Source of the DNA: Bacteroidota bacterium
GTDB taxonomy: Bacteria > Bacteroidota > Bacteroidia > Chitinophagales > Saprospiraceae
Direction of reading: 5' to 3'
Assembly (NCBI GenBank): GCA_016124585.1
Contig: WGNL01000008.1
Location: forward strand, 124,001 to 188,000
Length of the DNA: 64,000 nt
Shown: piece by piece, positions 29,560-47,832 of the stretch
How positions within the stretch are numbered: the stretch's first letter is position 1
Layout: each line of letters starts with the position of its first letter
Notes under the pieces: generated by a model
What the model saw: the letters and a program-made list of their open reading frames with translations, nothing else
Told to the model about the DNA's origin: nothing
The model's database searches: none
Position numbers and translations under genes: made by a program

Positions 29560-29594
29560 GGCGGTGGTTTTACATTATCATTGACTTTTTAACA

Positions 29595-29708
29595 ACGATA
29601 AAAATGCCAATAAAAAAAAGATGGCTAACCCGTTGTTTATCAACGAATTAGCCTGTGGGTATAACATCTGTGTTAATCTGTTTCGGTAAAAAAGTCCCAA
29701 TTTGGGAA
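29595..29708 (-). promoter_or_regulatory. Locus-2 sigma-54-type promoter of Wzy-like gene (site E)
   Basis: On the minus strand: TTCCCAAATTGGGA (29695-29708), 63 nt from its first C to TTGATAAACAA (29643-29633), then 23 nt to TGGCATT (29609-29603). GG-N10-GT gives the -24/-12 pair. About 24 nt would separate the transcript start from ATG 29559. Confidence 0.62.
29612..29653 (-). terminator. Intrinsic terminator of FG-GAP surface protein gene
   Basis: Hairpin with two stems (GGCTAA/TTAGCC at 29623-29628/29648-29653 and CGTTG/CAACG inside), followed on the minus strand by eight T. It lies 87 bp past the stop of the large surface-protein gene and overlaps the dyad of promoter site E. Confidence 0.7.
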
Positions 29709-29739
29709 AAGTGGAGAGCTCTGATGGTCTTTCAATACA

Positions 29740-32700
29740 TCAATTCTTCATCAGCATCATTTTGCCAAAATAGCCACGTCCTTTGCTATCCACAGCTTTT
29801 ACGATATAACTGCCAGTGCCAAGGTGGTAGAGATAAAGTTCTTGCCGTTGTCCTTCCACGACGGGAGCCTCGTAAACTTGCCGCCCAAACTGGTTAAACA
29901 CTTTCATTTCTACAAAAAACGAAGCTGGGTCCAAGCTCAAGTCGAATGACTGTACCATGACTTTACCTGAACTTGGGTTCGGAAAAAGTTGGAGTGGCCT
30001 TGCAACGGCTTTGGTTTCCTTTACAATTTCTGAGGTCAGTACGTTCTCGACGGTATTTGTTACAACTGGTTCCAGGTTATCAAAGAAAATGGATGCTTGA
30101 TTGAGCAAATGGTCGCCAATGACAAGGCTTGTGGCGGGCTTAATCCGGAACGAAACGTAACCGTGGCTTTCTGCTTCGTTGGAAAGACTATCTGGCAGAT
30201 TGATGTTTGGGAAAATCCAGGTTAGCTTGTGGTTTTTGTCCACTTGGAGCCGATAGGTGTGACTTGCACTGCCAAGTTCGAGTGTGGAAATATCCAGACT
30301 TGCCGTAAGCTCATCTTCTACCCTGATCTGTGCCGCTGGAATGTTCCCCACATTTTGGAACCTAATTTTGTAATAAAGCCATTCATCCCGCTTTACATAC
30401 CTAGCTGGACTGACCGAAATATCATTGGGATCGAAAGCCGCCACTGTCTGCGACTTGTCCACGGAGCTGTTGTTGGTTTGGCTCAATTCAGCGTTTCCGT
30501 TGCCGATGTCAGCTTGTAAGGAAATCTCAGTGCCGATTGGCGTCAGAGGGTCGACTGTGTAGGAAATGAAAACGGTGCCCTGCTGCTGTGGTGCTAGGTC
30601 GGCCAAGCCGAATGTCAAGACAGAGGTGGTGCTTTTATCGGAAGAATAAGGCAATGAACTGAGCAATACCGAAATTTCTGAAGGAATCGTCACTTTTAGT
30701 TCAACGTTTCTGGCGGCTGCCGTGCCAATATTTTTGTAGTTGACAATCATCAAATTGTGCTGACCGATACGATGAGCTGCTGCAAAAATCTCGGTAGTGA
30801 GGTCTGGCAAATTGCTGACGATGGAATTGCCAAAATCAACATTGGCATATTTCAAACCAGCAGCAGCAACCGTCACGGATTGCTGGCCACTGTTATTGGG
30901 ACATTGTGGATTAAAATTGCTGCCAGGAGATTCCTGTAAAGTGTAGCTGCCTGTGGGCAAAAACGCCGAGTAATAACCATTTTCATCGGCATACACCACC
31001 GTGTTGCCAGGCTGGAATTCGACCCGCGCATTGGGCACGCCAATCCTGTTGGTAGAACTGCCCACGGGCGCTTGGCTTGGGTCAACGACAAATTGTGAGG
31101 CAATGGTCGCACAATCCTTTGCGGCTGGCAAATATGGACTGACTCCTACAGGATTTGCCCAAGCTGGCGTACAATACTGTGAAATATTTGCCGACCAGTT
31201 GGTGCCAGTGAGGTTGAAGGTGTTTTGGATATTCCCGTTGTCCAGCCAGATGACAAGACCTGTACCATTGACCTCAGCTGGTGACAGGTTCTGAAATCCG
31301 CCATTGGTCACATGTACCTTTGTATCCTCAACCACCATTTTTCCAAAGATATAATTCTGGAAATTGCCGCCAATCTCCATTTTGACACTTTGCAAGGTAT
31401 CAATGCCAGCGTTGTTATAGCTACCCGACAATTGAAAAACGGCGTTTTTCCATTTTTTTGAGCCAATGCTGTAATGGCCACCTGTTACATAAATCTTGCT
31501 CAGCTGAGCCTCAAACTTACCCGAAGAACCAACGATATCGAAATTTCCATTTTCCATGTTGAGTTCTCCGCCAAGTAGCTTCACGCTGGCATCTGCAATA
31601 GTCAAATTCCCATTTTGCAACGTAAGCTTGGCATTGGTAACAAACAATTGACTATTGCCATTGATGTAGATATTGCCATTGGTAATGGTTACATCATGTT
31701 CAATACTGATGGTTTTGTTGAAAATATTGCTGTAAGAAGGCACCACGCCACCTGCCCAAGTGGAAGCCGAATTCCAGTTTCCTGCCTGGACAGATCGGTA
31801 ATTTGCCGATTGGGCAGCCTGTGGCAACCCACTGCCACTGTTGCAGTCTATATTTTCTTCGTAATAAACCTGGCCGCTCACCTCAGCGGCATCGTCTTCC
31901 GTGATGACGAGGAACTGGTTCACCGCCTGATTGCTCAAAGTCTGCCGATAGCCCGAAGGCCAAATCACCTGAATGGAAGCAATCACGCTGGCATTTCCCA
32001 AGCCGATGCTGGCAACCAAGCTGTTTTGGCCACCAGTGCCGCCACCAGTCTGTCCTGAAATCATCCGGATCTGCGTCACTGACTGTCCGTTAATCGTGGC
32101 AGTGACCAAGATTTTAGCCCCGATCGCCGACTTGTTTGAATTCGTGCCGATGAGCTTGATGCTTGTCCAGTTCTTACAAGTTCCTTTCAGGTTTTTGTAG
32201 AAAAAATTGCCAGTGCCTTCGCGGTTGGCCACGAAGAGGTCAAGGTCGCCGTCATGGTCATAATCGGCCCAAGCCGCACCGAAGGAAAATCCGCCAGCAG
32301 TGGTTATTTCATTTTGGATACTGGTAAAGCTATCATTGCCATCATTGCGGTAAAGGGAATTATTGTCACCGTCCCTCGCCACGAAGAGGTCAAGGTCACC
32401 GTCGTTGTCCCAATCTGCCCAAGCGCTGCCGTGAGCATTGCCTCTATCTGTGACGATGTTGCCAGTGGTTATTTTGGTGAAAGTACCGTTGCCGTTGTTT
32501 TGGTACAGGTAGCAGGGTTCGTTGCCCGCATTGGTGACGAAAAGGTCAAAATACCCATCGTTGTTGTAATCTGCCCAAGAAGCGCCCACGCTGCTGCCGC
32601 CGTCATTGACGATTGTACCAGTAGTTACCCGCTGAAAATTCCCGCCGCCTGCATTGTGGTAAAGGCTGTTGTTTTGACCGCCCGTGTTTGCCACGAAGAG

Positions 32701-34206
32701 GTCGAGCAGGCCATCGTTGTCGTAATCGCCCCACACACCAGAGACGGAACGGGACGCCTCATTGGTGATGGCGTTGTTCGTCACTTCGCTGAAAGTGCCG
32801 TCGCCGTTGTTGTGGTAAAGCAGGTTGAACGCTGTTTCCCAATACACTGCAACGAACATGTCTAGGAAGCCGTCGTTGTCGTAATCCCCCCAGCTCACAC
32901 CGTGCGAGTAACCTGTGGAGCTGACGATTGGGTCGCCCAAAACTTTGGTGAAATTCTCGCCGCCCTCGTTCCGGTAGAGGTAATTTTCGAAGCCAATATT
33001 ATTGCCAACGTAGAGGTCGAGGTCGCCGTCGTTGTCGTAATCGCCCCAAGAAGAAGATACCGAAGACGCCAAGTCTGTGCTGAAAGGCGCTGTGCTTACT
33101 TTCGTGAAACTGCCGTTGCCGTTGTTGCGGTAAAGTGCGTTCGGCTGGTTGGGGTCGTGCGTCGTTACAAAGAGGTCGGGGTAATTGTCGTTGTTATAAT
33201 CGCCCCAAGATGCGCCCCAGTCATCGCCACCGCCTTCAAGTCCAATGTCCGTGCCGATCAGTTGCTTGGCAAAATCCTCAGGGGTGCCTACGAGGCAGGG
33301 GTCTGGCGGCGGAAAGGAATTCGGTGCATTCACGACGACTGTTCCGTAATTGGAAGTATGCTTGACATTATTGCCATTACTGCTTGCACCATAAGGTTTT
33401 ATTTCCGTTGAAATTGAATTGCATTTAACCTTGAAAGTGTATCGTACCGTGACATGATAAGTACCGCCACCCAAGGAGGAAGGGAAGATGAAATTCAAGG
33501 TATTGAGCGTATTCAAAGGAATGAATAAGGGAACATCGGTACTGATTATCGTAGTGCCTATAAGCTGAAGGCAAGAAGCATCAAAGTTTAGGTTGCCAGC
33601 TGGTTGGAACAGCGCAAACCCATTATTGGGCACATTGCCTAATTCATAAATTTGATCGTAATAGGTGGTTGAACCAAGAATCAAACCTGGACCAGTAGTA
33701 AATGTACCCAGCAAGCCTCCCGCAGTAGCAGAGATACTGCTCCTAGTCTTCATTTCCACTTGTGATTGTACAGTGCCAGGGTTGGAATCTGATACCGTAA
33801 TTTTTACAGTCATCGTTGAGTTTACAACACATGGGTAACTTAGGTACCAAAACAAGGTAGTACATGCCCCTGGGGTAAGTGTTCCAATGGTCTGTGTAAC
33901 CGGCTGTCCACTCTGTAATGCAAAGCCTGGTTCCAATCCGCTCAATGTAGCCGACAAATTAGTGAGTATGCCAAGCGATGTATTACAAATACTATAAGCC
34001 ACATACGCAGCCCGAGGGCCACCACAGGGGTCGTTTGAATCGAGGATAAATCGTGTGCCTGACTTGTTGGTAATGCTAACTGCTCCTATGTTGAGGGCAT
34101 TAACCCGCTGAATGCTAAAGCAAAGTGCGAAGAAGAGAAGCATAAACCAAAAAAATGGCCTGCCACTCAACCGAGGCTGTTCGAGTTTTTGTAAAGTAAG
34201 ACCCAT
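29740..34206 (-). CDS. Large T9SS surface protein with FG-GAP repeats and ASPIC/UnbV domain
   Basis: Predicted 1488-residue secreted protein. In order: signal peptide (FFWFMLLFFALCFSIQRVNA); a beta-rich N-terminal region; at ~315-690 at least seven FG-GAP/VCBS repeats of the type WGDYDNDGDLDLFV with calcium-loop aspartates; an ASPIC/UnbV-like segment (LVASIGLGNASVIASIQVIWPSG); a strand-repeat stretch (LTLQNGNLTIADASVKLLGG); a carboxypeptidase-regulatory-like fold (GVPNARVEFQPGN); a DUF11-like segment; a domain with YYKIRFQNVGNIPAAQIRVED; and a type A sorting domain (LQLFPNPSSGKVMVQ). It should be displayed by the T9SS, perhaps binding polysaccharide. Locus-2 promoter site A lies 35 bp upstream. 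Confidence 0.9.
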   Translation of the reverse strand: MGLTLQKLEQPRLSGRPFFWFMLLFFALCFSIQRVNALNIGAVSITNKSGTRFILDSNDPCGGPRAAYVAYSICNTSLGILTNLSATLSGLEPGFALQSGQPVTQTIGTLTPGACTTLFWYLSYPCVVNSTMTVKITVSDSNPGTVQSQVEMKTRSSISATAGGLLGTFTTGPGLILGSTTYYDQIYELGNVPNNGFALFQPAGNLNFDASCLQLIGTTIISTDVPLFIPLNTLNTLNFIFPSSLGGGTYHVTVRYTFKVKCNSISTEIKPYGASSNGNNVKHTSNYGTVVVNAPNSFPPPDPCLVGTPEDFAKQLIGTDIGLEGGGDDWGASWGDYNNDNYPDLFVTTHDPNQPNALYRNNGNGSFTKVSTAPFSTDLASSVSSSWGDYDNDGDLDLYVGNNIGFENYLYRNEGGENFTKVLGDPIVSSTGYSHGVSWGDYDNDGFLDMFVAVYWETAFNLLYHNNGDGTFSEVTNNAITNEASRSVSGVWGDYDNDGLLDLFVANTGGQNNSLYHNAGGGNFQRVTTGTIVNDGGSSVGASWADYNNDGYFDLFVTNAGNEPCYLYQNNGNGTFTKITTGNIVTDRGNAHGSAWADWDNDGDLDLFVARDGDNNSLYRNDGNDSFTSIQNEITTAGGFSFGAAWADYDHDGDLDLFVANREGTGNFFYKNLKGTCKNWTSIKLIGTNSNKSAIGAKILVTATINGQSVTQIRMISGQTGGGTGGQNSLVASIGLGNASVIASIQVIWPSGYRQTLSNQAVNQFLVITEDDAAEVSGQVYYEENIDCNSGSGLPQAAQSANYRSVQAGNWNSASTWAGGVVPSYSNIFNKTISIEHDVTITNGNIYINGNSQLFVTNAKLTLQNGNLTIADASVKLLGGELNMENGNFDIVGSSGKFEAQLSKIYVTGGHYSIGSKKWKNAVFQLSGSYNNAGIDTLQSVKMEIGGNFQNYIFGKMVVEDTKVHVTNGGFQNLSPAEVNGTGLVIWLDNGNIQNTFNLTGTNWSANISQYCTPAWANPVGVSPYLPAAKDCATIASQFVVDPSQAPVGSSTNRIGVPNARVEFQPGNTVVYADENGYYSAFLPTGSYTLQESPGSNFNPQCPNNSGQQSVTVAAAGLKYANVDFGNSIVSNLPDLTTEIFAAAHRIGQHNLMIVNYKNIGTAAARNVELKVTIPSEISVLLSSLPYSSDKSTTSVLTFGLADLAPQQQGTVFISYTVDPLTPIGTEISLQADIGNGNAELSQTNNSSVDKSQTVAAFDPNDISVSPARYVKRDEWLYYKIRFQNVGNIPAAQIRVEDELTASLDISTLELGSASHTYRLQVDKNHKLTWIFPNINLPDSLSNEAESHGYVSFRIKPATSLVIGDHLLNQASIFFDNLEPVVTNTVENVLTSEIVKETKAVARPLQLFPNPSSGKVMVQSFDLSLDPASFFVEMKVFNQFGRQVYEAPVVEGQRQELYLYHLGTGSYIVKAVDSKGRGYFGKMMLMKN

Positions 34207-34240
34207 TTCAAGAAGTTAGACGAAGGGGCAATCGGTGGGA

Positions 34241-34345
34241 GCAAAAAATGAACCCAAGACCCAAGTAATTGAAAATCAAATACTTGCATCAAAAAAAACC
34301 ATTCCTTAACTTTATTTTATTGGGAATTTTTCCAAAAATGGGAAA
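34241..34345 (-). promoter_or_regulatory. Locus-2 sigma-54-type promoter of FG-GAP surface protein (site A)
   Basis: On the minus strand: TTTCCCATTTTTGGAA plus a second TTCCCA 18 nt later (34345-34321), 63 nt from the first C to TTGATTTTCAA (34279-34269), then 12 nt to TGGGTTC. GG-N10-GC (34254-34241) is a full -24/-12 match. The ATG at 34206 follows 34 nt after it. Confidence 0.72.
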
Positions 34346-34359
34346 CGGGAATGGCTCTT

Positions 34360-35475
34360 TTACGAAGCATAAATCCGCAAAAGCTCCCCGCAGATTTGCC
34401 TCCAATCGAAAACTTCCTGCACCATCCGCTTTGCATTGGCCCCAATCGGCTTTAGCTTATTTTGTTTGTAAAAACCGGCAGTACTTTCCATCGCTCCACA
34501 AACTACTTCGGGATTGAGCACCCCTTCCATCGGAAATCCCGCCGCATATTGTCGAATGTAGCTATTGATATTTGTGCCCTCGCTGGTGAGGCAGGGCAGA
34601 CCAAGTGCCGCAGCTTCCAGCACAGCCATTGGAAAACCTTCCGAACGGCTCGTATGCAGAAAGACATCAACATTGGCCATCAGACGGTACTTTTCGTCGC
34701 CATATTTTGCACCTAAAAAAATGACATGTTGTTGAATTCCTAGTTCATTCACTAAATGCTCCAGTGCCTTCCGGTCTTCGCCATCACCGATGATTTCCAA
34801 CTTGGCTTGGTAGCCCTTTTTCAAAAAAAGCGCAAAGCCATGCAGCATGAAATCGAGGCCCTTGTAGTAAATATCCAGTCTGCCGCAGAAGCCGAAAGTG
34901 AGCTGAGGCTTGGGAGTTTTCAAAATATCCTTCGGCAGTTCGGAAAGCTCCATCCCATTGGGAATCAGCACTCTATGAGCATTTTTCGTGAGCAAACCTA
35001 AATGCTCAAATTCCAAGTCTCCCAATAGTTGAACAGCTTTGGCATTTTCTACCAAGCTTTTTTCAAACAAGGAAAAATAAAGCCGCTTGCGCAATTTGCC
35101 CTTTTGCAAAGCAACCGCACTGAACGAGCCGTGTGGGGTAAAAACATATTCGATGCCTTGCTTTTTCAGCATTTTTGTCAACAGGTAAAACTCCATGATG
35201 AATGCCCCGTGAACATGGACAATTACATCTTGGGGCAATGTCCTAACTGAATTTACGAGGTCATCGTCAAGCCAGATTTTATTGCTGGACTGTAAAAAAA
35301 GCTTAGTCTTGAAGCTACGTTTAGGGTAATTGTGTTCTAAAGAATTGGCGATGCCCCAGACTGTTACATCATGCCCCATTTTTTGTTGCGTTTTCGCCAA
35401 TTGGTACGCCACTTTGTTTACCCCGTTCATGCGGTCGGGATTGGCTTTTCCAAGTACTGCATGGATGATTTTCAC
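34360..35475 (-). CDS. Glycosyltransferase family 4, locus 2
   Basis: Predicted 371-residue GT-B fold enzyme. Seen are KIIHAVLGKANPDRMNGVNKVAYQLA (acceptor-domain start), GIEYVFTPHGSFSAVALQKGKLRK, LTFGFCGRLDIYYKGLDFMLHGFALF, and the EX7E motif in TSRSEGFPMAVLEAAALGLPCLTSEG. The start is a GTG at 35475, giving MKIIHAV; no ATG fits. It starts 5 bp after the flippase gene ends and is the last gene of the run Wza, Wzc, flippase, GT4. Donor sugar unknown. Confidence 0.93.
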   Translation of the reverse strand: MKIIHAVLGKANPDRMNGVNKVAYQLAKTQQKMGHDVTVWGIANSLEHNYPKRSFKTKLFLQSSNKIWLDDDLVNSVRTLPQDVIVHVHGAFIMEFYLLTKMLKKQGIEYVFTPHGSFSAVALQKGKLRKRLYFSLFEKSLVENAKAVQLLGDLEFEHLGLLTKNAHRVLIPNGMELSELPKDILKTPKPQLTFGFCGRLDIYYKGLDFMLHGFALFLKKGYQAKLEIIGDGEDRKALEHLVNELGIQQHVIFLGAKYGDEKYRLMANVDVFLHTSRSEGFPMAVLEAAALGLPCLTSEGTNINSYIRQYAAGFPMEGVLNPEVVCGAMESTAGFYKQNKLKPIGANAKRMVQEVFDWRQICGELLRIYAS

Positions 35476-35480
35476 GGGTT

Positions 35481-36776
35481 TCAGGATTGAGAATTAGAAA
35501 GATGGAAGATTTGGGAAGTATCAGTTTTTTTGAAAATAGCAAAACCATATACTACCAATGTCAGCACTTGGGCACCAATCAAGCCTGCCACCACGCCACC
35601 CATGCCCCATCGCTCCACGACGGGATAAGCCACCAGCAAGCTGACCAAGGCACTGGCCGTGTATCCAATAAAAATGGGCTTGGTAAATTGCATGGAACGC
35701 AGTGCAAATCGCTGCAAAGTAGCGATGTAACCTAGAAGATACACGACTGCATAAGCTCCAACCAAATAAGCAAATGCTTGATAGTCAGTACCGTATAACC
35801 AACCGATGAGCCAGTGCGACACCAAGGTCAGGATACCTAAAAGCCCAACGACGGGGATAGCCACCAAGCCTCCTGCTCGCCGTAGATAAGCGAACATTGC
35901 CTTTTCTCCCTTCGTAAAAAACTGTCGGGCAGCCTCCACTGGAACGATGTTTTCCATGGCGAGAAAAATCACGTGGCACAAGCCGACCATGTTTTGCGCC
36001 ATGCGCAAAGCACCGACCGCCACTGTCCCCTGCGTTGCCGCAGCAGCCACGAGGAAGTAATTGCCAGAAAACCATTGTACCAGCGAGGTGCCCAACAGCC
36101 AAAAAGAATAATGATAATGTTCCTTTGCAGTTTTGAGGATTTGTTTTCTATTCCATCGTTTTATGAGTTGGTGACCAATTAGTCGCACACCTATCCCACA
36201 ACTTATTCCATATGACACCATTATTGACCAAAGTGCTATATCAAGGTCAAGACTACCGTCAATTTTAAATAAAATCAAACAAGAGAATAAAGAAATATAA
36301 AGTATGACATCCATTAACAATGGGATATTAAACTGCCCATTTGCGAAGCAATATTTTTTAACAAAATCCTGAATTAAATAAAATGCGGAAACGAAGCCAA
36401 TTGCAGGTATTTGCTGCAACAAGTCCACCTTATATCCTATTATTTTCATTAAAGAATAAAAAGCCAAGGCCATAAAAACCAAACTAATGGATATGAGCAA
36501 TTGAAGTCCGGAAAGTGACTCTAAATAAGTAGCTCGCCTGTAAGATTCTTTTCCAGCAATAAGCGTCAAAAATGGTTGGGTAATATATGCTTGATGAAGG
36601 CTCAGCAGAAATAACACCCCCATCCAGAGTAGGCTATATTGTCCAAAAACCGCTAAACCCAACCAACGAGCCAAAAGCACTCCTAAAGCGAAATTCCCCC
36701 CAGAAGCCACTGCTTGGCCGAGCAGTGCGAGGGATTTTGGGGAGACGAGGATGGATTTTACCTTGGGAATGGACAT
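35481..36776 (-). CDS. Polysaccharide flippase (Wzx-like), locus 2
   Basis: Predicted 431-residue inner-membrane protein with about 12 helices of the MATE/MOP superfamily. The N-terminal part (SLALLGQAVASGGNFALGVLLARWLGLAVFGQYSLLWMGV) has the helix, arginine and FGQY turn usual for Wzx-like proteins, and a mid-part SLVQWFSGNYFLVAAAATQGTVAVGALRMAQN follows the family layout. The stretch ~36120-36600 is visibly richer in A+T than its neighbours, which is common in flippase genes and may mark older transfer. It lies 66 bp after the Wzc gene and 5 bp before the GT4 gene. Confidence 0.9.
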   Translation of the reverse strand: MSIPKVKSILVSPKSLALLGQAVASGGNFALGVLLARWLGLAVFGQYSLLWMGVLFLLSLHQAYITQPFLTLIAGKESYRRATYLESLSGLQLLISISLVFMALAFYSLMKIIGYKVDLLQQIPAIGFVSAFYLIQDFVKKYCFANGQFNIPLLMDVILYISLFSCLILFKIDGSLDLDIALWSIMVSYGISCGIGVRLIGHQLIKRWNRKQILKTAKEHYHYSFWLLGTSLVQWFSGNYFLVAAAATQGTVAVGALRMAQNMVGLCHVIFLAMENIVPVEAARQFFTKGEKAMFAYLRRAGGLVAIPVVGLLGILTLVSHWLIGWLYGTDYQAFAYLVGAYAVVYLLGYIATLQRFALRSMQFTKPIFIGYTASALVSLLVAYPVVERWGMGGVVAGLIGAQVLTLVVYGFAIFKKTDTSQIFHLSNSQS

Positions 36777-36842
36777 TTGAAAGTGAATGGGAAGCGCTAT
36801 TTTTTGAATTTTATCCTGCGATTTTTAATAAAAACTCCTACC

Positions 36843-39122: not shown

Positions 39123-39207
39123 GGCCTTGAATTTTCTAAAAATGACGTGTTGCCGGGATGTTGTTCTTTGCCAAATGCTTCATTTTGAAACCATAGTGCA
39201 TTTAGGA

Positions 39208-39954
39208 TTATCGCAGGATTATCGATGCAGCCAATGCGACACCACCCAAAATGCCACCAACCACAGCGGCACGCCGCAGCCTTTCGTCAGCGCCCTTCTT
39301 CTCGTTAGGCCCGATGTACACTACGTCGTCCGATTGAAGCTGCACATTGTAATCACCAAAAGTGACAAGGTCTGTCAAGTCTACCACCAGTTCGACGGGC
39401 TTGTTTTGTACCTGTCGGATAATTTTCACCTCATGTCCTTTGGCGTAGGGCGTCAGGCCAGCCGCAGAGCCAATTATTTCCACAAGCGTCATCTGTTCGT
39501 TGTCCAGTGGGTATCTGCCGGGCTTATTCACTTCCCCCAATACCGTCACAAAATGATTGATAACCCTCACGTTGATGATAGGATCCTTCAGCAACGCTCG
39601 GTATTTTTCCTCCATCAAATAATTCACCTCTTTCACATCATAGCCCGCCACTTTCACCCGTCCGATCTGTGGGAAATTCACCTCCCCATCATTGTCCACC
39701 ACGAGCCATTTGCCGGTCACCTCATCGGAATTGTAAACACTATTGACCGAACCAATACTCAGTTCTTCATGTCCCCAGATACTGAGACTGAGCTTGTCTC
39801 CAGGTTTTATTACAGCTTCTTTTGGTTGAAAATATTGCTTCAGCACGTTCCGGTTGTCAGTTACAGGGCCAGGGCTTTGGAACAATTGCTGCGGAGGGCT
39901 GCACGAGGCAAGCATTGCGGTGAGCGCAAACAAATAAATCAATGGCCTAAGCAT
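39208..39954 (-). CDS. wza: Polysaccharide export lipoprotein (Wza-like)
   Basis: Predicted 248-residue outer-membrane lipoprotein of the polysaccharide export family. Signal peptide with lipobox (TAMLASC, Cys18). A Poly_export domain (~55-130) has IKPGDKLSLSIWGHEELSIGSVNSVY and DNDGEVNFPQIGRVKVAGYDVKEVNYLM, and a SLBB domain (~135-215) has VTVLGEVNKPGRYPL. A C-terminal helix (AAVVGGILGGVALAASIIL) could cross the outer membrane, as in Wza. It is the only exporter of this type in the window and heads the run Wza-Wzc-flippase-GT4 under locus-2 promoter site D. Confidence 0.95.
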   Translation of the reverse strand: MLRPLIYLFALTAMLASCSPPQQLFQSPGPVTDNRNVLKQYFQPKEAVIKPGDKLSLSIWGHEELSIGSVNSVYNSDEVTGKWLVVDNDGEVNFPQIGRVKVAGYDVKEVNYLMEEKYRALLKDPIINVRVINHFVTVLGEVNKPGRYPLDNEQMTLVEIIGSAAGLTPYAKGHEVKIIRQVQNKPVELVVDLTDLVTFGDYNVQLQSDDVVYIGPNEKKGADERLRRAAVVGGILGGVALAASIILR

Positions 39955-39990
39955 GGTCTAGTTTTTTACATTATCATCTAGACTTGTAAA

Positions 39991-40102
39991 ACCAGCAACG
40001 TGCCATTTAAAACCAGTACTTAAACAACTGAAAGTCAGCTACTTAAGCTATCTCACTAATTCGGCAGTATCTAGTTTAGGGAAAGGTTTCCCAAAATGGG
40101 AA
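39991..40102 (-). promoter_or_regulatory. Locus-2 sigma-54-type promoter of wza operon (site D)
   Basis: On the minus strand: perfect palindrome TTCCCATTTTGGGAA (40102-40088), 62 nt from its first C to CTGACTTTCAG (40038-40028), then 22 nt to TGGCACG (40005-39999), the exact sigma-54 -24 consensus. The -12 reads GT. ATG 39954 follows about 37 nt later. Confidence 0.74.
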
Positions 40103-40118
40103 TTGGCGGGAACACCAG

Positions 40119-41876
40119 TTATTTCATCAAAGCCACCTCGGTTCTCCGGTTTTCAGCACGGCCTTGGTGTGAGCCGTTGCTTTGCCGGGGCATCGCTTCA
40201 CCGTAGGAAATCATTTCCATTTGCTCGGCAGGAATGCCTTTCATGCGCAGGTAATCCTTCACAGACTTTGCCCGACGAAGCCCCAGTTCGTAATTGTAGG
40301 CAACAGTTCCCTCTGTATCCGTGTGGCCAGAAATGATGAGGTGTGTCGATGGTTCCTTTTTCATTTGCTCCGCAAAATCATCCAAAAGCGCTTGAAAACT
40401 TGGAGCGATAACGGCCTCATCCGACGTGAAAGTGACGACCACTGCTGGCTCGTTGGCGGCAGCTAGTAAGGCATTTGGGCAACCACCAAACTCTCGAAGT
40501 CCACGTAAATAGGGACATTGGTCGTCAAGGTCCGATAACCCGTCCCTGTCGGTATCGGGGCAGCCATTGAGTTCGGGCTGACCTTTGATGAAGACACATT
40601 CGTCTTCCCGGTCAGCCACACCGTCCTTGTCAGTATCCCGGTCGAAAATGGGGCAGCCGTGGTTTTCGAAATGGCCGAAAATCTCTGGGCAGGAGTCTTC
40701 CTGATCATAAATGCCATCACCATCTCGGTCGTTGCAGCCGTGGAACTGCCGCTGGCCAGGTTCGAGCGGGCATTCGTCGAGGTCATCGTTCAGACCATCC
40801 TTATCTGTGTCGAAAGTGACCTCAGCACCTGCTTCCGGGCAGCCTTGGAGTTCTTTTAGCCCTGCCACTTTGGGACATTTATCGCGGTTATCAAACACAC
40901 CATCGCCATCCGTGTCCTTCAGTTTCTTTTTGGGGTTTTGGTCAAAACGGAGGTACAATCCGAGTTCCAGTGCACCACGCCCACCAGTAGCAGCATCCAG
41001 CCCCGAAACATTTGCATCGTAGCTGGCCCAGATACTTTTATTGCCAATCTCCATGCCCACCTGTACTAGCACCGCATCGCCCATGCGGTAGGCCATTCCA
41101 GCGTTGAAGTCGGCATTTTTATCAAAAGTCCCATTGATTTTTACACCGTAAAGCACCTCCTGATGAACGCCCTGTTTTTGTAGCAAAAAATGTGGCGTGA
41201 GGATAAGGCGATTGTCAATTTTCATGTCCAAGCTGCCATGAATCGTGGTTCGCATGGGCAAGTCGTAGACCTCGCCAAAAAAGCCTTCGTTGGGCAAGTG
41301 GATATGTGACAATGACATGCCCAGGCTGCTTTTCAAATTCCCTGTACTTCCCCATTGGCCTTGCCAAAGCAGGCCAGCACCGAAATCGGCAAATGAGACC
41401 TTGGTCCGGTCGAAAACCTCCCGATTGGGCAAAGAAGCGTCGTAGCCCACCCCATCAGCATATTGGTTGTCGAAAGTGAGCAAGGCCGGATCCACCCGTT
41501 TTTGCAATTTACCAATACCCACTCCTATCGACAACGAGCCTTCCTGCGCCAGCCGCTTGTGATAGGCACCTGTGAACATGGCGGCTGTGGTTTTGAGACT
41601 AGCTGGCCCCGCTTGGTTTTGGTGCAATTGAAAACCCAAACCCACCTGCCTTAATTTTAACTCTGCGGTTGTTCCCATTGTGGTGAAACCGCTCACAATA
41701 CTGTTCCATTGGCTACGGTACTGCACCCCGACTTGCGCATCGTATTTGCCCACCGCCGTCAATGCCGGGTTGAACAACATACCTGCGGGCTGGTAATTGG
41801 ACAAGTTGATGTCCTGTGCAAGCAAACTGGAAGCCACAAGCAAGCAAAGGACGAGTATTTGGTAATTTTTGTTCAT
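40119..41876 (-). CDS. PorP/SprF-type protein fused to TSP3 repeats and OmpA domain
   Basis: Predicted 585-residue outer-membrane protein in three parts. After a signal peptide (VLCLLVASSLLAQ), residues ~20-310 are a PorP/SprF-type beta-barrel (NLSNYQPAGMLFNPALTAVG). Five thrombospondin type 3 repeats follow (DTDGDGVFDNRDKCP and similar). The C-terminal OmpA domain binds peptidoglycan (LIISGHTDTEGTVAYNYELG, with NRRTEVALM at the end). PorP/SprF proteins serve the T9SS and are needed to display partner adhesins with type B sorting domains. The gene before it (44244 to 41938) encodes such a protein, 61 bp upstream. I chose ATG 41876 because it begins the signal peptide. Confidence 0.9.
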   Translation of the reverse strand: MNKNYQILVLCLLVASSLLAQDINLSNYQPAGMLFNPALTAVGKYDAQVGVQYRSQWNSIVSGFTTMGTTAELKLRQVGLGFQLHQNQAGPASLKTTAAMFTGAYHKRLAQEGSLSIGVGIGKLQKRVDPALLTFDNQYADGVGYDASLPNREVFDRTKVSFADFGAGLLWQGQWGSTGNLKSSLGMSLSHIHLPNEGFFGEVYDLPMRTTIHGSLDMKIDNRLILTPHFLLQKQGVHQEVLYGVKINGTFDKNADFNAGMAYRMGDAVLVQVGMEIGNKSIWASYDANVSGLDAATGGRGALELGLYLRFDQNPKKKLKDTDGDGVFDNRDKCPKVAGLKELQGCPEAGAEVTFDTDKDGLNDDLDECPLEPGQRQFHGCNDRDGDGIYDQEDSCPEIFGHFENHGCPIFDRDTDKDGVADREDECVFIKGQPELNGCPDTDRDGLSDLDDQCPYLRGLREFGGCPNALLAAANEPAVVVTFTSDEAVIAPSFQALLDDFAEQMKKEPSTHLIISGHTDTEGTVAYNYELGLRRAKSVKDYLRMKGIPAEQMEMISYGEAMPRQSNGSHQGRAENRRTEVALMK

Positions 41877-41937
41877 TATCAAGGGAGTGGGCTGAATTCG
41901 ACTTAGGTTTTCAAGGAGAGGTGTTATCAAACATGAA

Positions 41938-44244
41938 TCATCGTAGCAAAGTCACCATGCCAGACAGCACCTTTTCTTTTTGATTGGAATTGATTTTCAC
42001 AAAATAGGCGTAGGTCCCGCTCTGCACGGGAAGTCCATTTCGTAAGCCATCCCAACCGGCATCGGGGTTTTCGGACTGAAAAAGGGGCTCGCCCCACTGG
42101 TTGAACACAGCCATGAAAAATGGACCATCTACTTGGCCACGAACCCGGAACTGGTCGTTTTCCCCATCACCGTTTGGGGTAAAAGCATTGGGGATGAAAA
42201 TACCGGGCAGGTCAGGGGCGCTGGTTATTCGGATAAAATCGGACTTGAGCAAACTGTGCCGACAACCAAAAGCATCCTTCGCATTTAGCGCTACCGAATA
42301 TTGCCCCTCCACATCGTAACGATGGGTTGGGCTGGGCTGTGTGGAGCTGTTTAGCGCACCCGTATTCGGATCGCCAAACTGCCACTCAAATGCTACAGGT
42401 TGGTCATTGCCAATGCTGCTGAAAGTTATGGATTGGCCCACTGGCGCAATGCGTTGCGAAGCACCAAAATCATAGGAAGGCACTGGTGCGGCTTGTACTT
42501 CCAATTCATTGGAAAGTGCCGTGATGCCCGTGCTGGGGTCAGTGGCTTGTACTTGATAAACACCAATTTCGCTGACTTCCAAGGTCGGAGCCGTTTGGCC
42601 AGCAATGTGCCATCCGTCCTTTAACCACTGGTTGCCAGTGGGTGAGGATGATTTCAAAACAAGCGTCCCACCTGAGCAAAGTAATTGGCCAGCTTGGGCA
42701 ATGATGGTGAGCACATCAGGCAAGGGAGTTACCTGCACAGCTAGAATTTGCGACATGCTAGTACAGCCGCTGGCGGTTAGTTCGACGAAGTAATCACCTG
42801 ACGTTGTGACCGTGATGGTTTGCGTAGCTTCTCCATTCGACCAAAGTAACTGACCTGTACCGCCAGCAATTAAGATGAATGAATCACCTTCGTAAAAATT
42901 GAGTGGCCCAACGGCGGAAATGCTGACTGTTGGTATTTCGGTAATGTTGATGGCAATCAGGTTTGAAGAAAGCACTTGCCCCAAATAGTCCGTCTCTGCT
43001 TTGATAGTATGTGGCCCCGGCGTCAATTGCGAAGCAGAAAAGCTACTGGAAGTGTCGCTTTGTATCATGGTTCCATCCAGATAGAATCGGTAATTGTTGA
43101 AAATTTGCGGCGCAGCGGAAAGGTTAAGGGCATCGCCTTCACAAATTTCCGTAGAGCCGTTCAAATTGACCAGTGAAAGGCTGATGGGTGGCGCAGCATC
43201 CAAATTTAGCTCCCGAACGACGTGGTTGTATGAGTCGCAAACAAAAACGCTTTTTGTTTTGGTGGACCAAGTGAGTCCGGTAGTTCCTTTGAAAGCAGCA
43301 GTGCTGCCTTGGCCGTCTTGGTATCCAGGAACTTGAGGATTGCCCACTACGGTAGAAACCACACCGTTTGGTTCTATTTTGCGGATAACGTAATTGTAAC
43401 CATCGGCCACGAACACATTGCCGTCATCATCCACTGTCACATCCCACGGATAATTGAACATCGCATCCGAGGAAGGACCATTGGCGTGGCCTTGAATGCC
43501 ATTTCCGGCGAGGGTTGTCACAATGCCCTGTGGGGTCACCTTCCTTATCTTGTGGTTCCACTCATCAGCCACAAGGATATTGCCAGCGTGGTCTATGGTC
43601 AGGCCATAGGGCCGCCAAAACTGTGCATCCGTCCCAGTACCGTCCGCATCGCCGGGGATATAGGCCATACCCGCCACTGTTGTTACGAAACCATCCGTTG
43701 AGACTTTTCGGATGATATTAGTCAGATGGTCTGCCACGTAAAGATTGCCAAAAGCATCAATCTCGATGCCCGTAGGATTGCCGAAGGTGGAAGAAAGTGC
43801 AAGTCCGTTGCTGGTGCCGTAGTTCCCAGTGCCAGCAATGGTTTCCACTTTACCGCTGAGGGTTATTTTACGGATTTTGTTGTTTTTGGTATCAGCGACG
43901 TACACCACACCATCGGGAGTGGCGCAAATACCCAGTGGCTCATGGAAACGTGCAGCGCTACCAATGCCATCGTTGCTGCCACTTATCCCAGCAGTTCCGG
44001 CTAGGGTTGTCACCGTATGGGTGTTGGTATCCAAAATTCGGATGACATGGTTGTTCTGGTCGGCAATAAAAATATGCCCAAGCGTATCGGCTGCAATGCC
44101 ATGTGGGTTGAAAAAGCGAGAACTGAGCGCTGGCCCATCATTGGAGCCAGGCGTCTCTACTACGCCAGCCACAGTCGTAACCCACTGCGCATTCGCCATT
44201 GCGAAGCACGACAGTAAGGTAAGTGTGATGACGATTTTCTGCAT
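41938..44244 (-). CDS. NHL-repeat surface protein with type B T9SS sorting domain
   Basis: Predicted 768-residue secreted protein. Signal peptide MQKIVITLTLLSCFAMANAQ (start ATG 44244). At ~25-370 lie about six NHL repeats (FFNPHGIAADTLGHIFIADQNNHVIRI and similar), forming a beta-propeller. Ig-like segments and a PKD domain (ITFSSIGNDQPVAFEWQFGDPN) follow. The gliding-motility type sorting domain ends the protein (IPNAFTPNGDGENDQFRV ... VLSGMVTLLR). Type B proteins of this kind need a PorP/SprF partner, which is the next gene. It lies under locus-2 promoter site C-minus, so it should be made together with the polysaccharide. Confidence 0.92.
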   Translation of the reverse strand: MQKIVITLTLLSCFAMANAQWVTTVAGVVETPGSNDGPALSSRFFNPHGIAADTLGHIFIADQNNHVIRILDTNTHTVTTLAGTAGISGSNDGIGSAARFHEPLGICATPDGVVYVADTKNNKIRKITLSGKVETIAGTGNYGTSNGLALSSTFGNPTGIEIDAFGNLYVADHLTNIIRKVSTDGFVTTVAGMAYIPGDADGTGTDAQFWRPYGLTIDHAGNILVADEWNHKIRKVTPQGIVTTLAGNGIQGHANGPSSDAMFNYPWDVTVDDDGNVFVADGYNYVIRKIEPNGVVSTVVGNPQVPGYQDGQGSTAAFKGTTGLTWSTKTKSVFVCDSYNHVVRELNLDAAPPISLSLVNLNGSTEICEGDALNLSAAPQIFNNYRFYLDGTMIQSDTSSSFSASQLTPGPHTIKAETDYLGQVLSSNLIAINITEIPTVSISAVGPLNFYEGDSFILIAGGTGQLLWSNGEATQTITVTTSGDYFVELTASGCTSMSQILAVQVTPLPDVLTIIAQAGQLLCSGGTLVLKSSSPTGNQWLKDGWHIAGQTAPTLEVSEIGVYQVQATDPSTGITALSNELEVQAAPVPSYDFGASQRIAPVGQSITFSSIGNDQPVAFEWQFGDPNTGALNSSTQPSPTHRYDVEGQYSVALNAKDAFGCRHSLLKSDFIRITSAPDLPGIFIPNAFTPNGDGENDQFRVRGQVDGPFFMAVFNQWGEPLFQSENPDAGWDGLRNGLPVQSGTYAYFVKINSNQKEKVLSGMVTLLR

Positions 44245-44272
44245 GAGCCAATTCTGCTTTGCAATTGCAAAA

Positions 44273-44375
44273 GAGAAATGCACGCCATTTTTTAAAATAT
44301 TGAATATCAATGATTTACAAGGAAAAACAAAACACTATTTTCCAATTTTGGGAAGACATTTATGGTTTTGGGAAT
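44273..44375 (-). promoter_or_regulatory. Locus-2 sigma-54-type promoter of NHL protein operon (site C-minus)
   Basis: On the minus strand: ATTCCCAAAACC (from 44375) and a second CTTCCCAAAATTGGAA 20 nt later, 62 nt from the first C to TTGATATTCAA (44310-44300), then 12 nt to TGGCGTG (44287-44281). The -12 position (TC) is a poor match. ATG 44244 follows. Confidence 0.6.
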
Positions 44376-44515
44376 GCCTGAGCAAGTGAATTCCAAAGCT
44401 TGAAGGCGTTAATCTTTGAACAATGCGCTGCCCCACAGCGCATTTCATGGCAAGATTTTGAATTTGGTGACTAGCATTTCTGTTCCCCAAAACGCTCCCA
44501 AAACAGGAGCCTATT

Positions 44516-44619
44516 TTTCCCACCTATTGTCCCAAATTCCAAAAACGGGAACGATTCTCGAAAACAAATTTTCCCAACTAACTGAAAATCAATGACTTGC
44601 ATTTTGGCATTTTTCAGGT
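44516..44619 (+). promoter_or_regulatory. Locus-2 sigma-54-type promoter of DUF1972 glycosyltransferase (site C-plus)
   Basis: TTTCCCA at 44516 and further TCCCA/GGGAA half-sites to 44552, 63 nt from the first C to CTGAAAATCAA (44582-44592), then 12 nt to TGGCATT (44605-44611), with GG-N10-GT. ATG 44653 follows 33 nt after it. It lies back to back with site C-minus. Confidence 0.68.
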
Positions 44620-44652
44620 AATGCTATTTCGGAATTTTATTCAATAAAAACT

Positions 44653-45858
44653 ATGACAAGTCAGAACACCAAGTTAGGCATTATCGGCACTGTTGGAGTA
44701 CCCGCTAAATACGGCGGATTCGAAACACTCGCCCAACAACTGGCACTCAACCTTCGGGGAGAGTATGAACCAACGGTTTATTGCAGCGCAAAAAACTACA
44801 CCAAACAAGAGCGGGTTGCCAATTGGAATGGTATCAAGCTCTTTTACTTGCCTTTTAGTGCCAATGGTCCACAGAGCGTTATCTACGATATTGTTTCGAT
44901 GATACACGCAATGATTTTTATGGACGTAATGCTTGTACTTGGCGTTTCTGGCGGCATATTCCTTCCTATTGTTAAGCTGTTTGCCCCAAGTAAGCAAGTC
45001 GTTGTCAACTTAGACGGCCTTGAATGGAGGCGGGCAAAATGGCAGGGATTTGCGAAGCGGTTTCTGAAATTCAGTGAAAAAATAGCCGTGCGTTATGCTG
45101 ATGAACTCGTGACTGACAATGCCGCCATCCAACGTTACGTGCTAGAAATGTACGGTGCTACAAGCCGCCTTATCGAGTATGGTGCCGACCATGCAGAGGC
45201 AGTTCAAATCCAGCCTGACTTCGTCCAAAAACATCCTTTCCTTACAACAGACTATGCCTTTAAGGTGTGCAGAATAGAACCGGAAAATAATATCCACTTG
45301 GTGCTGGAGGCATTTGCAAGATATGAAAAAATGCCGCTCGTGCTGGTCGGCAATTGGGAGCATAGCCCCTATGGCCATGAGTTGCGCCTACTTTATCGGC
45401 AGTATAAAAACCTTTACCTGTTAGACCCCATTTATGAACCGCAGGAATTGGACATGCTTCGCTCCAATTGTATGATGTATGTGCATGGCCATAGTGCAGG
45501 CGGTACCAACCCTTCCCTAGTTGAAGCGATGTACTTGGGGCTTCCGGTGCTGTCGTTTGGAGCGATTTACAACCGCATCACCACGCAGGAGCGTGCACTT
45601 TTCTTCGAAACTGTGGAGGAACTTATCGATATTTTGAAACAAATACCAAGGATGGACCTCAGCGAAATTGCACATGACTTGAAATGGATCGCCGATATTA
45701 GGTACAATTGGCCAACTATTTCACAAAAATACAGCATGGCCTTCCGGGGCGCCGAGCGGGAACTTACGCCTGCACTTGATTCCGAATTGGCTTTGGCGCT
45801 TCAACGTATATCGGATTGGGCTCCAGTTGGTGTTTATCCAGTGAATAGGATTGGGTAA
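44653..45858 (+). CDS. DUF1972-type glycosyltransferase
   Basis: Predicted 401-residue GT-B fold enzyme. The N-terminal DUF1972 domain is recognised by LGIIGTVGVPAKYGGFETLAQQL and the NLDGLEWRRAKW segment, typical of rhamnosyl- and related transferases of polysaccharide loci (WchF-like). The C-terminal GT4 domain has KVCRIEPENNIHLVLEAF and HSAGGTNPSLVEAMYLGLPVLSF. Donor sugar is not certain. It is a single-gene unit divergent from the NHL-protein operon and driven by its own locus-2 promoter. Confidence 0.93.
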   Translation: MTSQNTKLGIIGTVGVPAKYGGFETLAQQLALNLRGEYEPTVYCSAKNYTKQERVANWNGIKLFYLPFSANGPQSVIYDIVSMIHAMIFMDVMLVLGVSGGIFLPIVKLFAPSKQVVVNLDGLEWRRAKWQGFAKRFLKFSEKIAVRYADELVTDNAAIQRYVLEMYGATSRLIEYGADHAEAVQIQPDFVQKHPFLTTDYAFKVCRIEPENNIHLVLEAFARYEKMPLVLVGNWEHSPYGHELRLLYRQYKNLYLLDPIYEPQELDMLRSNCMMYVHGHSAGGTNPSLVEAMYLGLPVLSFGAIYNRITTQERALFFETVEELIDILKQIPRMDLSEIAHDLKWIADIRYNWPTISQKYSMAFRGAERELTPALDSELALALQRISDWAPVGVYPVNRIG

Positions 45859-46277
45859 ATTTAATTTTCAAGAAAGCTTCAAGTGAACCTGAAAAACTGA
45901 TCTGGGCCACTTTTAAAGCTGCTCGGAACTCACACCAAAACATGGATTATTGCCTTTAGGTAATGTCCCTCACCATCAATTTGGCAAGACCATAAAGGTA
46001 TTTACGAAGCATGCTGCCCTTGGATTTACAGGGCTAAATTCGAAGAGTAACCGTTTTTGGATACTCTCGCAACCATGATTTTCACTCTAATTTCTATCAA
46101 TGCCTAAAACCTAATAGGCGGCATTAACGGCTTGGCAGGAGACCTTTACACTATTTGCCAGATATTTGGCATTGTACTTTGCCTACGTTGCGAAGATCAA
46201 ACAGCGATTTGTTAGCCATGTATAAAAAGGCTAGGTGTGAGCCTTGGTAGAATGATTCTGTAAGTTTAATTGAAATA
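45859..46277. other. Gene-free 419-bp interval
   Basis: Lies between the ends of two convergent genes, the DUF1972 glycosyltransferase and the NtrC-type regulator. I see no coding pattern, no clear intrinsic terminator and no recognised RNA. Base composition is close to that of the other spacers. It may be a remnant of a lost gene. Confidence 0.5.
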
Positions 46278-47654
46278 TTAGCTGTACACGCTTCGCTGTT
46301 GCTTTCCGTTATCAGCCAACATTCTGTAAATAGTGGATTTACCGATATCCAGTTTTTTCGCCACCAACAACACATCGTTGTTGTAACGTTCGAGGTAGTG
46401 GTTGATAATACGGTTTTTATACTCTTCCAAGGTAAGTGTCTCGCTGAGAAATGCAGCTTCTTTCCGCACGCTGTTGAAACGGATATCACTTGCCTCCACA
46501 GCGCCATTGCTAGCCATGACTGCCGCCAATTCCATCTGGGCCTTCAATTCCCGTACATTGCCTGGGTAGGCATAGTCCAGCATTTTGGCTTTAGCCTCTT
46601 TGGATAATTGCATGTCCCCAAGGCCGTTGGCTTGTGCGAAACTGTCCAGGAAAAACTGACCCAATAAAATGATATCGTTGGAACGCTCTCGAAGTGGCGG
46701 CATGCTGATGTTCAGTCCAAGGAGCCGGTAGTAGAGGTCTTCCCGAAAATTGCCACGCTGCACTTCGTCCGCCAAACTGCGGTTAGTGGCTGTGATGAGC
46801 CTAGCATCGAAAGGGATTGGAGCATCGCCGCCAACCCGCATGATTTCCCGTTCTTGAAGTACCCGCAGGAGCTTTGCCTGCATGTTCATGTCCATTTCCC
46901 CAATTTCATCAAGGAAAAGCGTACCGCCATCCGCCTGTTCGAATTGGCCTTTTTTTCGGGCAATTGCACCAGTGAATGCCCCTTTTTCATACCCAAAAAG
47001 CTCACTTTCGAGTAGCTCCTTCGGGATAGCACTCATGTTCACCGCAACGAAAGGGCCATTGTATCTGGTCGAATTTTGGTGGATGGATTTGGCTACGAGT
47101 TCTTTGCCAGTACCGGTTTCACCTACAACCGAAACCGTGATATTGGTAGAAGTTGCCTTTTCCATCAGCTCAAATACCTCCGCCATGGGCTTGCTATTCC
47201 CCAGAATATCAGTACCAAAAGCTGGCTTTCCCATAGGAACTGGCTTTGCATTAGCTGTCGCCACGCTTTCCTGAATTTCAGTTTTGATACTGTTGAGGGT
47301 GTGGAGCAGCCGCTCTTTGGTTTCCTCATCTTTGGTGATATAATCCGAGGCACCCAATTTCAGCAGCCGTACGGCGGTCGCCACATCCAATTGGCCAGAG
47401 AGCACAATGACATGTGTATCTGGGCTTTGTTGCTTGATTTTGAGAAGCAACGCTTCTCCTTCCGAATCGGGTAGTGAATAATCAAGGGAAACGATGTCAG
47501 GCTTTTCCTGGATGCGCTGCAAAAGCGCTTGCCCGGTGTTGAACACGACTACTTCATGGTCAGGATTTATGCCCATCACGTACTTCACAAGGCGTTGGTA
47601 AAGGGGGTCGTCTTCAACTACGAAAATTCGTGTAGATTGCTTCTTTACTTTCAT
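46278..47654 (-). CDS. NtrC-family sigma-54-dependent response regulator, locus 2
   Basis: Predicted 458-residue activator. The receiver has Glu14-Asp15-Asp16, acceptor Asp58 (DIVSLDYSLPDSEG) and Lys108 (YITKDEE). The AAA+ domain has Walker A GETGTGKE (178-185), the exact sigma-54 loop GAFTGA (225-230), Walker B FLDEIGEM and the NVREL motif. The C-terminal Fis-type helix-turn-helix is in NDVLLVAKKLDIGKSTIYRML. It lies centrally among six genes or operons whose promoters share TTCCCA sites ~85-97 nt before a TGGCA-like element, the usual distance for NtrC-type binding sites, so it is the leading candidate for their activator. No cognate kinase is adjacent. Confidence 0.95.
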   Translation of the reverse strand: MKVKKQSTRIFVVEDDPLYQRLVKYVMGINPDHEVVVFNTGQALLQRIQEKPDIVSLDYSLPDSEGEALLLKIKQQSPDTHVIVLSGQLDVATAVRLLKLGASDYITKDEETKERLLHTLNSIKTEIQESVATANAKPVPMGKPAFGTDILGNSKPMAEVFELMEKATSTNITVSVVGETGTGKELVAKSIHQNSTRYNGPFVAVNMSAIPKELLESELFGYEKGAFTGAIARKKGQFEQADGGTLFLDEIGEMDMNMQAKLLRVLQEREIMRVGGDAPIPFDARLITATNRSLADEVQRGNFREDLYYRLLGLNISMPPLRERSNDIILLGQFFLDSFAQANGLGDMQLSKEAKAKMLDYAYPGNVRELKAQMELAAVMASNGAVEASDIRFNSVRKEAAFLSETLTLEEYKNRIINHYLERYNNDVLLVAKKLDIGKSTIYRMLADNGKQQRSVYS

Positions 47655-47717
47655 GCGCTACTGTGGAAGGGGGGATAGGGTGCATCAATCGAGGGTATGC
47701 ATCCTTTACAAATTGCA

Positions 47718-47820
47718 TTCCCATTTTTGGATTTTCATTCCAAATGGGGGAAATTAGGTAGGGAAAACATAATTTAAATAATTGATTTTCAATGCATTGC
47801 AAAAAAGGCATTAAAATAGA
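47718..47820 (+). promoter_or_regulatory. Locus-2 sigma-54-type promoter of nucleotide-kinase-like operon (site B)
   Basis: TTCCCATTTTTGGA with the facing TTCCAAATGGGGGAA (47718-47752), 62 nt from the first C to TTGATTTTCAA (47782-47792), then 13 nt to AGGCATT. The -12 reads GA. The predicted transcript start is almost at the GTG 47833, so the message may be leaderless. It also lies upstream of the divergent regulator gene. Confidence 0.58.
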
Positions 47821-47832
47821 CTTCTCTCATGT

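Follow-up and report, generated by a model that had tools for sequence, protein, structure and literature searches.

The DNA considered here, called the window throughout, is a stretch of 64,000 nucleotides (nt) of contig WGNL01000008.1 from an environmental member of the Saprospiraceae (Bacteroidota; assembly GCA_016124585.1). Six sites, named E, A, D, C-minus, C-plus and B, lie within 18 kb of it (29595..47820), and all six transcription units are headed by the same composite layout (Table 1). The units code for exopolysaccharide functions and for type IX-sorted surface proteins; the membrane protein of unit D, for which neither Pfam nor NCBIfam gives a match, is read as Wzx-like. Among these genes lies that of a response regulator of NtrC type, here called REG, and elsewhere in the window an H-NOX (haem-nitric oxide-binding) sensor gene adjoins that of a hybrid histidine kinase. 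The six sites very probably constitute the sigma-54 promoters of one regulon resembling the Syp and Prs circuits, with nitric oxide (NO) as a possible input. In what follows, G000 denotes the genome of origin, G000-G013 the 14 congeneric genomes and L-numbers loci.

Table 1. Positions in the window of the transcription units, site elements and putative signalling proteins
Feature	Positions	Strand	Remarks
Unit E: Wzy_C-type protein (28306-29559), APH-family protein (27029-28309)	27029..29559	-	
Unit A: 1488-aa FG-GAP/ASPIC surface protein	29740..34206	-	Por_Secre_tail match just under cut-off
Unit D: OPX export protein (39208-39954), Wzc-like chain-length protein, membrane protein, glycosyltransferase	34360..39954	-	
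Unit C-minus: NHL/PKD/CHU_C type IX-sorted protein, PorP/SprF-OmpA protein	40119..44244	-	
Unit C-plus: glycosyltransferase	44653..45858	+	
Unit B: thymidylate-kinase-like protein, hexapeptide acyltransferase, two glycosyltransferases	47833..52348	+	
Site E activator palindrome	29694..29708	-	TTCCCAAATTGGGAC; no second arm found
Site A activator palindrome	34330..34344	-	TTCCCATTTTTGGAA; second TTCCCA 18 nt downstream
Site D activator palindrome	40088..40102	-	TTCCCATTTTGGGAA; perfect; TTCCC arm 19 nt downstream
Site C-minus TTCCCA (44374) and palindrome (44354-44340)	44340..44374	-	TTCCCAAAATTGGAA
Site C-plus TTCCCA (44517) and palindrome (44537-44551)	44517..44551	+	TTCCAAAAACGGGAA
Site B activator palindromes	47718..47752	+	TTCCCATTTTTGGAT and TTCCAAATGGGGGAA, 20 bp apart; site also in 8 other congeneric genomes
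Site E IHF-type palindrome	29626..29650	-	one mismatch
Site A IHF-type palindrome	34262..34286	-	exact
Site D IHF-type palindrome	40021..40045	-	fits with NNN centre
Site C-minus IHF-type palindrome	44293..44317	-	exact
Site C-plus IHF-type palindrome	44575..44599	+	exact
Site B IHF-type palindrome	47775..47799	+	exact
Site E -24/-12	29583..29609	-	TTGGCA..GT; predicted +1 29583
Site A -24/-12	34229..34255	-	GG-N10-GC; predicted +1 34229
Site D -24/-12	39979..40005	-	TGGCACG..GT; predicted +1 39979
Site C-minus -24	44261..44287	-	TGGCG; TC at -12, not GC
Site C-plus -24/-12	44605..44631	+	TGGCA..GT; predicted +1 44631
Site B -24/-12	47806..47832	+	AGGCA..GA; predicted +1 47832
REG, receiver and sigma-54 AAA+ response regulator of NtrC type, candidate activator of the six promoters	46278..47654	-	Pfam, alignment
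H-NOX haem-NO-binding sensor protein	11594..12133	-	HNOB 6.6e-40; best PDB sequence match 6bde
Hybrid histidine kinase PAS-PAS-HisKA-HATPase-REC, HPt-like C-terminus	8670..11579	-	Pfam

Layout of the six sites and its recurrence

The window contains five matches to TTCCCA-N55..60-YTGANNNTCA, at A, D, C-minus, C-plus and B, where 0.03 are expected; none of 100 shuffles reached this number. Site E follows the pattern with one mismatch in the dyad. An earlier note on this DNA had proposed that the six sites have a common layout, and this is real. Between TTCCCA and YTGA lie 59 nt at E, A and C-plus and 58 nt at D, C-minus and B, which are the spacings then given (63, 63, 62, 62, 63, 62) minus a constant 4. 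From the first TTCCCA to the GG of the -24 element there are 100 (E), 90 (A), 98 (D), 88 (C-minus), 89 (C-plus) and 89 nt (B); the element does lie upstream of -24 as claimed, but within 88-100 rather than about 85-97 nt. In a scan of the whole genome, suggested by the same note as a check, TTCCCA-N58..60-YTGANNNTCA gave eight matches, five in the window and three on other contigs, compared with none for the reversed control. A looser scan with TTCCCA-N50..65-TGANNNTCA returned 35 matches, only five of them at these sites, and 5 for the reversed control.

TTCCCA is present at every site, but as an activator element it is only one arm of a palindrome, TTCCCANNNTGGGAA. The pattern TTCCCANNNTKGGA has 14 matches in the genome (site D being counted on both strands), six of which fall within the 18-kb stretch, as against 1 + 1 in the reversed control. 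NtrC-type activators usually have double sites. At A, D, C-minus, C-plus and B there is a second, mostly degenerate arm 18-21 nt further downstream; at E it was looked for and not found. When 29 sites of the window and of congeneric genomes were aligned and tested loosely, with no control, 27 showed another TTCC-type arm at a distance of 16-23 nt.

The -24 and -12 motifs described previously (GG-N10-GC at A, GG-N10-GT at C-plus, D and E, TGGCACG at D) are all found, and only A has the complete GG-N10-GC; E, D, C-plus and B have GG-N10-G followed by T or A. The strict consensus TGGCACGNNNNTTGCW, searched with up to three mismatches, recovered none of the six sites, their -12 parts being too degenerate. 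At five sites the start codon follows the predicted +1 at the distance claimed, that is after 24 (E), 23 (A), 25 (D), 17 (C-minus) and 22 nt (C-plus). The predicted +1 of site B precedes the listed GTG start by 1 nt and an ATA codon by about 20 nt; this ATA (47851-47853) stands where relatives have an ATG start.

The aligned sites allow the promoter elements to be compared with 92 flanks of unrelated copies of the 25-bp palindrome that contains the dyad (see below). The GG lies 6-8 nt past this palindrome in 23 sites and 16-18 nt past it in six, about one helical turn apart, which bears out the spacing difference first noticed at the six sites. A G occupies the -12 position in 22 of the 29 sites and in 13 of the 92 control flanks, and the -12 base had played no part in choosing the sites. 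Scores for -24/-12 elements past the palindrome have a median of 7.5 versus 2.0; 26/29 sites and 5/92 flanks reach 6, and 28/29 and 28/92 reach 5. A GGC requirement, under which 20 of the 29 sites had been picked, biases the count of GG and also part of these scores. TTCCCA at the regulon spacing is seen in none of the 92 flanks. Three of 23 candidate rows had been left out of the alignment (L070 at 6878, L192 at 9992 and L194). Leaving out L070, which lies before an NHL gene, has GG-N10-GC and was later matched by the composite, was probably wrong.

The layout recurs before the same kinds of genes. Upstream regions were scanned in 26 loci (the window, 18 congeneric stretches and the more distant L143-L149), omitting genes with less than 150 nt of upstream sequence and loci repeating the same genome. 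The composite precedes 7/7 OPX, 4/4 FG-GAP, 11/14 NTtmk and 7/10 NHL genes, 4/12 GT44, 2/6 WZY and 2/11 PorP genes, and 2/15 REG genes, whose intergenic region is common with NTtmk; the single EBP2 gene is without it. It was absent from all 85 control genes of ten families in these loci (HEXAP, GT49, GT51, GT4wecA, HK, HNOX, WZC, WZX, APH and GT34). In the seven loci L143-L149, nine matches at six places compare with 0, 0, 2, 1 and 1 in shuffles. The layout is seen there before NTtmk, GT44, OPX and PorP genes, and a looser reading of divergent loci gives further sites, for example before NTtmk, GT44 and OPX of L144. A listing of 23 composite matches counts two sites twice and probably includes several chance hits (shuffles gave 3-6). 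When TGGCA-N6-TTG preceded by TTCC..GGAA was searched for in the 44 loci L139-L182, no regulon-like promoter emerged, but as this search also missed the sites of L140-L149 it proves nothing.

The 25-bp palindrome between the proposed activator site and promoter

The dyad forms the middle part of a palindrome of 25 bp, YAANNNNYTGAWWWTCARNNNNTTR. This sequence is common genome-wide and not specific to these promoters. The genome of origin has 117 exact copies and none of the reversed control. From G000 to G013 the counts are 117, 91, 0, 2, 1, 128, 105, 62, 81, 53, 29, 104, 82 and 62, i.e., 29-128 in 11 of the 14 genomes and 0-2 in the other three. There are 0-21 copies in 22 further relatives of the family or order and 0-10 in 147 other genomes of the phylum, eight of which also contain the reversed control once or twice. 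Away from the six sites, 46 copies were inspected by a simple open reading frame test: 26 are intergenic and 20 lie within genes. One more copy is found in the window at 55490-55514. At L224 (G000:C7:158374-158398) the palindrome is followed at the regulon spacing by a near-consensus TTGGCACGGCGTTTGGC, possibly a sigma-54 promoter elsewhere in the genome.

In G003 and G004, where the palindrome is nearly gone, site B retains only the left half, the right half having decayed. Its abundance across the genome, together with this decay, marks the palindrome as a general element of the genus, put to use by the regulon. Two further readings were rejected: it is not part of REG's own recognition, given the 117 copies, nor a mark of sigma-54, since copies elsewhere mostly have no -24/-12 elements after them.

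The likely class of binding protein is suggested by the sequence. Available extracts of PMC10380432 give the IHF consensus as TAAnnnnTTGATW. Both halves of the palindrome fit it at fixed positions, with Y for T at two, and have the central base pair in common, so that the palindrome amounts to the IHF consensus read on both strands. Across the 29 aligned sites, conservation of the outer arms, YAA and TTR, comes close to that of the core (A at -6 in 29, A at -5 in 28, the two T of TTR in 25 and 27), and all have an A or a T at the centre. The genome encodes two HU-family (PF00216) proteins, HU1 with and HU2 without an RNP tip. Tentatively, we propose that a symmetric, sequence-specific IHF-type site evolved in the genus, with some 30-130 copies per genome, to be read by a homodimeric HU-family protein; three congeners would have lost or never gained it, and it would serve as the fixed bend of the REG regulon, NO-gated in this species. 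To our knowledge, and on a literature search confined to the IHF consensus, no symmetric IHF-type site read by a homodimeric HU-family protein has been described. The presence or absence of HU-family genes was considered as the cause of the palindrome-poor congeners and rejected, at least one such protein being encoded in all three.

An alternative that we consider possible, if rather unlikely, is that the palindrome belongs to a separate dimeric transcription factor which would provide the six promoters with a second, independent input, its likeness to IHF sites being convergence. Such a factor would account for the perfect symmetry, for the drop from 117 copies to 0-2 in congeners that still encode HU-family proteins, and for the intergenic position of 26 of the 46 checked copies (the other 20 lying within genes). 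It fits less well with the agreement of each half with the IHF consensus, with the decay of a single half at site B of G003 and G004, and with the location between activator site and -24 element, where IHF sites belong.

REG and its putative signal input

As the earlier note had it, an NtrC-type regulator is encoded among these genes. REG matches Sigma54_activat (6.4e-70) and Response_reg (1.1e-19) in Pfam and contains GAFTGA. It aligns with NtrC1 (4l4u) from the receiver through the C-terminal DNA-binding region, although Pfam does not call HTH_8, and its SLDYSLPD aligns with LLDLLLPD of NtrC1, which includes the phospho-acceptor Asp of the receiver. With 363.8 bits it stays below the curated cut-off of 502.6 for PrsR (TIGR02915). 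Relatives of REG occur in records from Saprospiraceae, Cyclobacteriaceae, Roseivirga, Chitinophagales and Bacteroidales. The genome has one match to RpoN (C4:53358-53831). REG is the best candidate activator of the six sites. The window also holds a second polysaccharide cluster (12362-26940; glycosyltransferases, flippase, chain-length protein) with an NtrC-type response regulator of its own at 25594-26940.

It is improbable, but conceivable, that the regulon is a sigma-54 regulon driven by another enhancer-binding protein, for instance that at 25594-26940, while REG serves other genes. The genome contains 26 REG-like matches, REG included (27 of 73 candidates were scored), any other of which could read TTCCCA, and one loose half-site lies upstream of the second regulator's gene. 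Against this, site B lies in the intergenic region of REG and stands beside REG in eight other congeneric genomes. Moreover, 33 loci of distant REG homologues with other neighbours (L150-L182) yield seven composite matches versus 3, 5, 4, 5 and 5 in shuffles; there being no clear excess, the layout is tied to the present clade of REG and to its set of genes. In many distant records REG and its kinase adjoin a 156-aa protein (19 of the 44 loci L139-L182) and a rhomboid-type protein (14/44), not polysaccharide genes.

As to the signal, the H-NOX protein is the sole PF07700 match of the genome. It has the IHVEV histidine and a YISER sequence, which we take to be the YxSxR haem motif, and its gene adjoins that of the hybrid kinase, a pair on which the earlier note is silent; a LytTR response regulator is encoded next to the pair (7921-8616). 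Pfam does not call Hpt in the kinase, whose C-terminus has AHKLKPT, but does so in four of six proteins scanned. In a one-way search with the L144 kinase that adjoins REG, the hybrid kinase of the window came first in the genome (537.8 bits, the next reaching 331.8), and it is the likely source of phosphate for REG. Six other genomes, counted among 70 locus rows in which some genomes have several, encode a close REG homologue (51-65 % identical) beside H-NOX and a hybrid kinase: L143, L144, L146, G045 (L081), G023 (L080, L199) and G027 (L072). The order is REG, H-NOX, kinase in the first three, and G027 has a second kinase. Because the pair is distant from REG here and adjacent to it in relatives, the link is drawn, for this genome, from comparison and not from position. 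Of 22 genomes with REG (own included, and counting a partial REG in G057) 10 have H-NOX, as do 6 of 38 without REG (Fisher p 0.017, uncorrected for relatedness); on this distribution it is an optional input.

A model of the regulon and known systems

Phosphorylated REG dimers would bind TTCCCANNNTGGGAA, often together with the degenerate site about 20 bp further on, the first arm preceding the -24 GG by 88-100 nt. The 25-bp palindrome in between would be occupied by a protein that bends DNA, most likely one of the HU/IHF family, and that would bring the AAA+ ring of REG to RNA polymerase-sigma-54 at -24/-12, where ATP hydrolysis by REG would drive open-complex formation. The shift of the promoter by about one turn, from 6-8 to 16-18 nt past the bend site, would preserve the helix face. 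REG would probably receive its phosphate from the hybrid kinase, through a His-Asp-His-Asp relay gated by the adjacent H-NOX; NO would alter the output and, by analogy with Vibrio fischeri, lower it. Binding, bending, sigma-54 dependence, phosphotransfer and the NO signal with its sign are inferred from sequences, spacings, recurrence, domains, palindrome abundance and gene adjacency. On these grounds we hold the promoter part of the explanation to be highly probable and the NO input somewhat favoured. The sigma-54 reading, already put forward in the earlier note, is supported as the best one by the single RpoN match, the domains of REG, the layout recurring before the same genes and its absence before the 85 control genes.

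Several observations weigh against the model, besides the selection bias mentioned above. The window itself served to tune the composite pattern; GT44, WZY and PorP genes mostly have no strict composite, and a loose half-site alone precedes 17/85 control genes (48/64 target genes). The seven aligned sites without a -12 G are C-minus, five sites before homologues of its NHL gene and L192; thus of six other sites before NHL genes five have no such G, the sixth being L070. As noted, the genome has many REG-like proteins, and HU-family proteins also occur in congeners without the palindrome, so the binder is unproven. H-NOX is present in only 16 of 60 genomes, own included; in the window the H-NOX/kinase pair lies 34 kb from REG; and G001, G003, G004 and G006 have REG and site B but no H-NOX, a kinase following REG in G003 and G004. 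That an ordinary Bacteroidota sigma factor reads these promoters, the layout being a repressor/activator pair, would suit a -12 element that is degenerate, and absent at C-minus, but is very improbable in view of the excess of G at -12 over control flanks and of the 5' untranslated regions of 17-25 nt, counted from the sigma-54 position, at five of the six sites.

The proposed sigma-54 regulon under REG offers a testable, base-level model for the joint switching of slime and type IX-sorted surface proteins, with possible NO input, in a largely uncultured family of Bacteroidota, and the genome-wide palindrome provides a handle on nucleoid proteins in this group. If true, the model gives the Syp circuit of Vibrio and the proteobacterial PEP-CTERM circuits, which underlie biofilm and floc formation, a counterpart in a different phylum with a different sorting system.

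In IHF-assisted sigma-54 promoters of the nif and glnH type, an activator site, a bend site and the -24/-12 elements follow each other. The order is the same here, whereas the putative bend site is symmetric and has many copies across the genome. That sigma-54 is linked in general to the cell exterior has been published (PMC3162934, in extract). A 2025 survey of sigma-54 regulons covers Bacteroidota, and the terms IHF, H-NOX and Saprospira are absent from its accessible text (PMC12316311). Among the papers listed in searches of open-licence PMC literature, none describes in its title or abstract start a comparable H-NOX/sigma-54/exopolysaccharide circuit for Bacteroidota.

In PEP-CTERM systems, the NtrC-type regulator PrsR of the PrsK-PrsR pair is usually encoded near exopolysaccharide genes, and control of exported, C-terminally sorted proteins via an upstream motif and -24/-12 elements has been proposed (extracts of PMC1569441). 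Dependence on RpoN was shown for one PEP-CTERM gene of an Aquincola strain in which the polysaccharide genes themselves seemed independent of RpoN1 (extracts of PMC9850573). The regulator, the exopolysaccharide genes, the sorted exported proteins and the promoter plan all have their counterparts here. In contrast, sorting is of type IX (CHU_C, Por tail) instead of by exosortase, the polysaccharide genes themselves carry the site, and REG scores under the PrsR cut-off.

A further close circuit is that of Vibrio fischeri, in which HnoX restrains HahK and SypG drives syp (PMC12369376, in extract). Unlike the present case it belongs to another phylum; no separate SypF step was seen here, the targets include type IX-sorted proteins, and a 25-bp symmetric bend site is present. 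In both, however, H-NOX and a kinase would feed an NtrC-type sigma-54 response regulator that acts on a polysaccharide locus, in Vibrio by way of HnoX-HahK-SypF-SypG. The SypG site, TTCTCANNNTGMDWN in the accessible part of PMC10162802, resembles TTCCCANNNTGGGAA, and it is by circuit role and site, not by protein sequence, that REG is likened to SypG.

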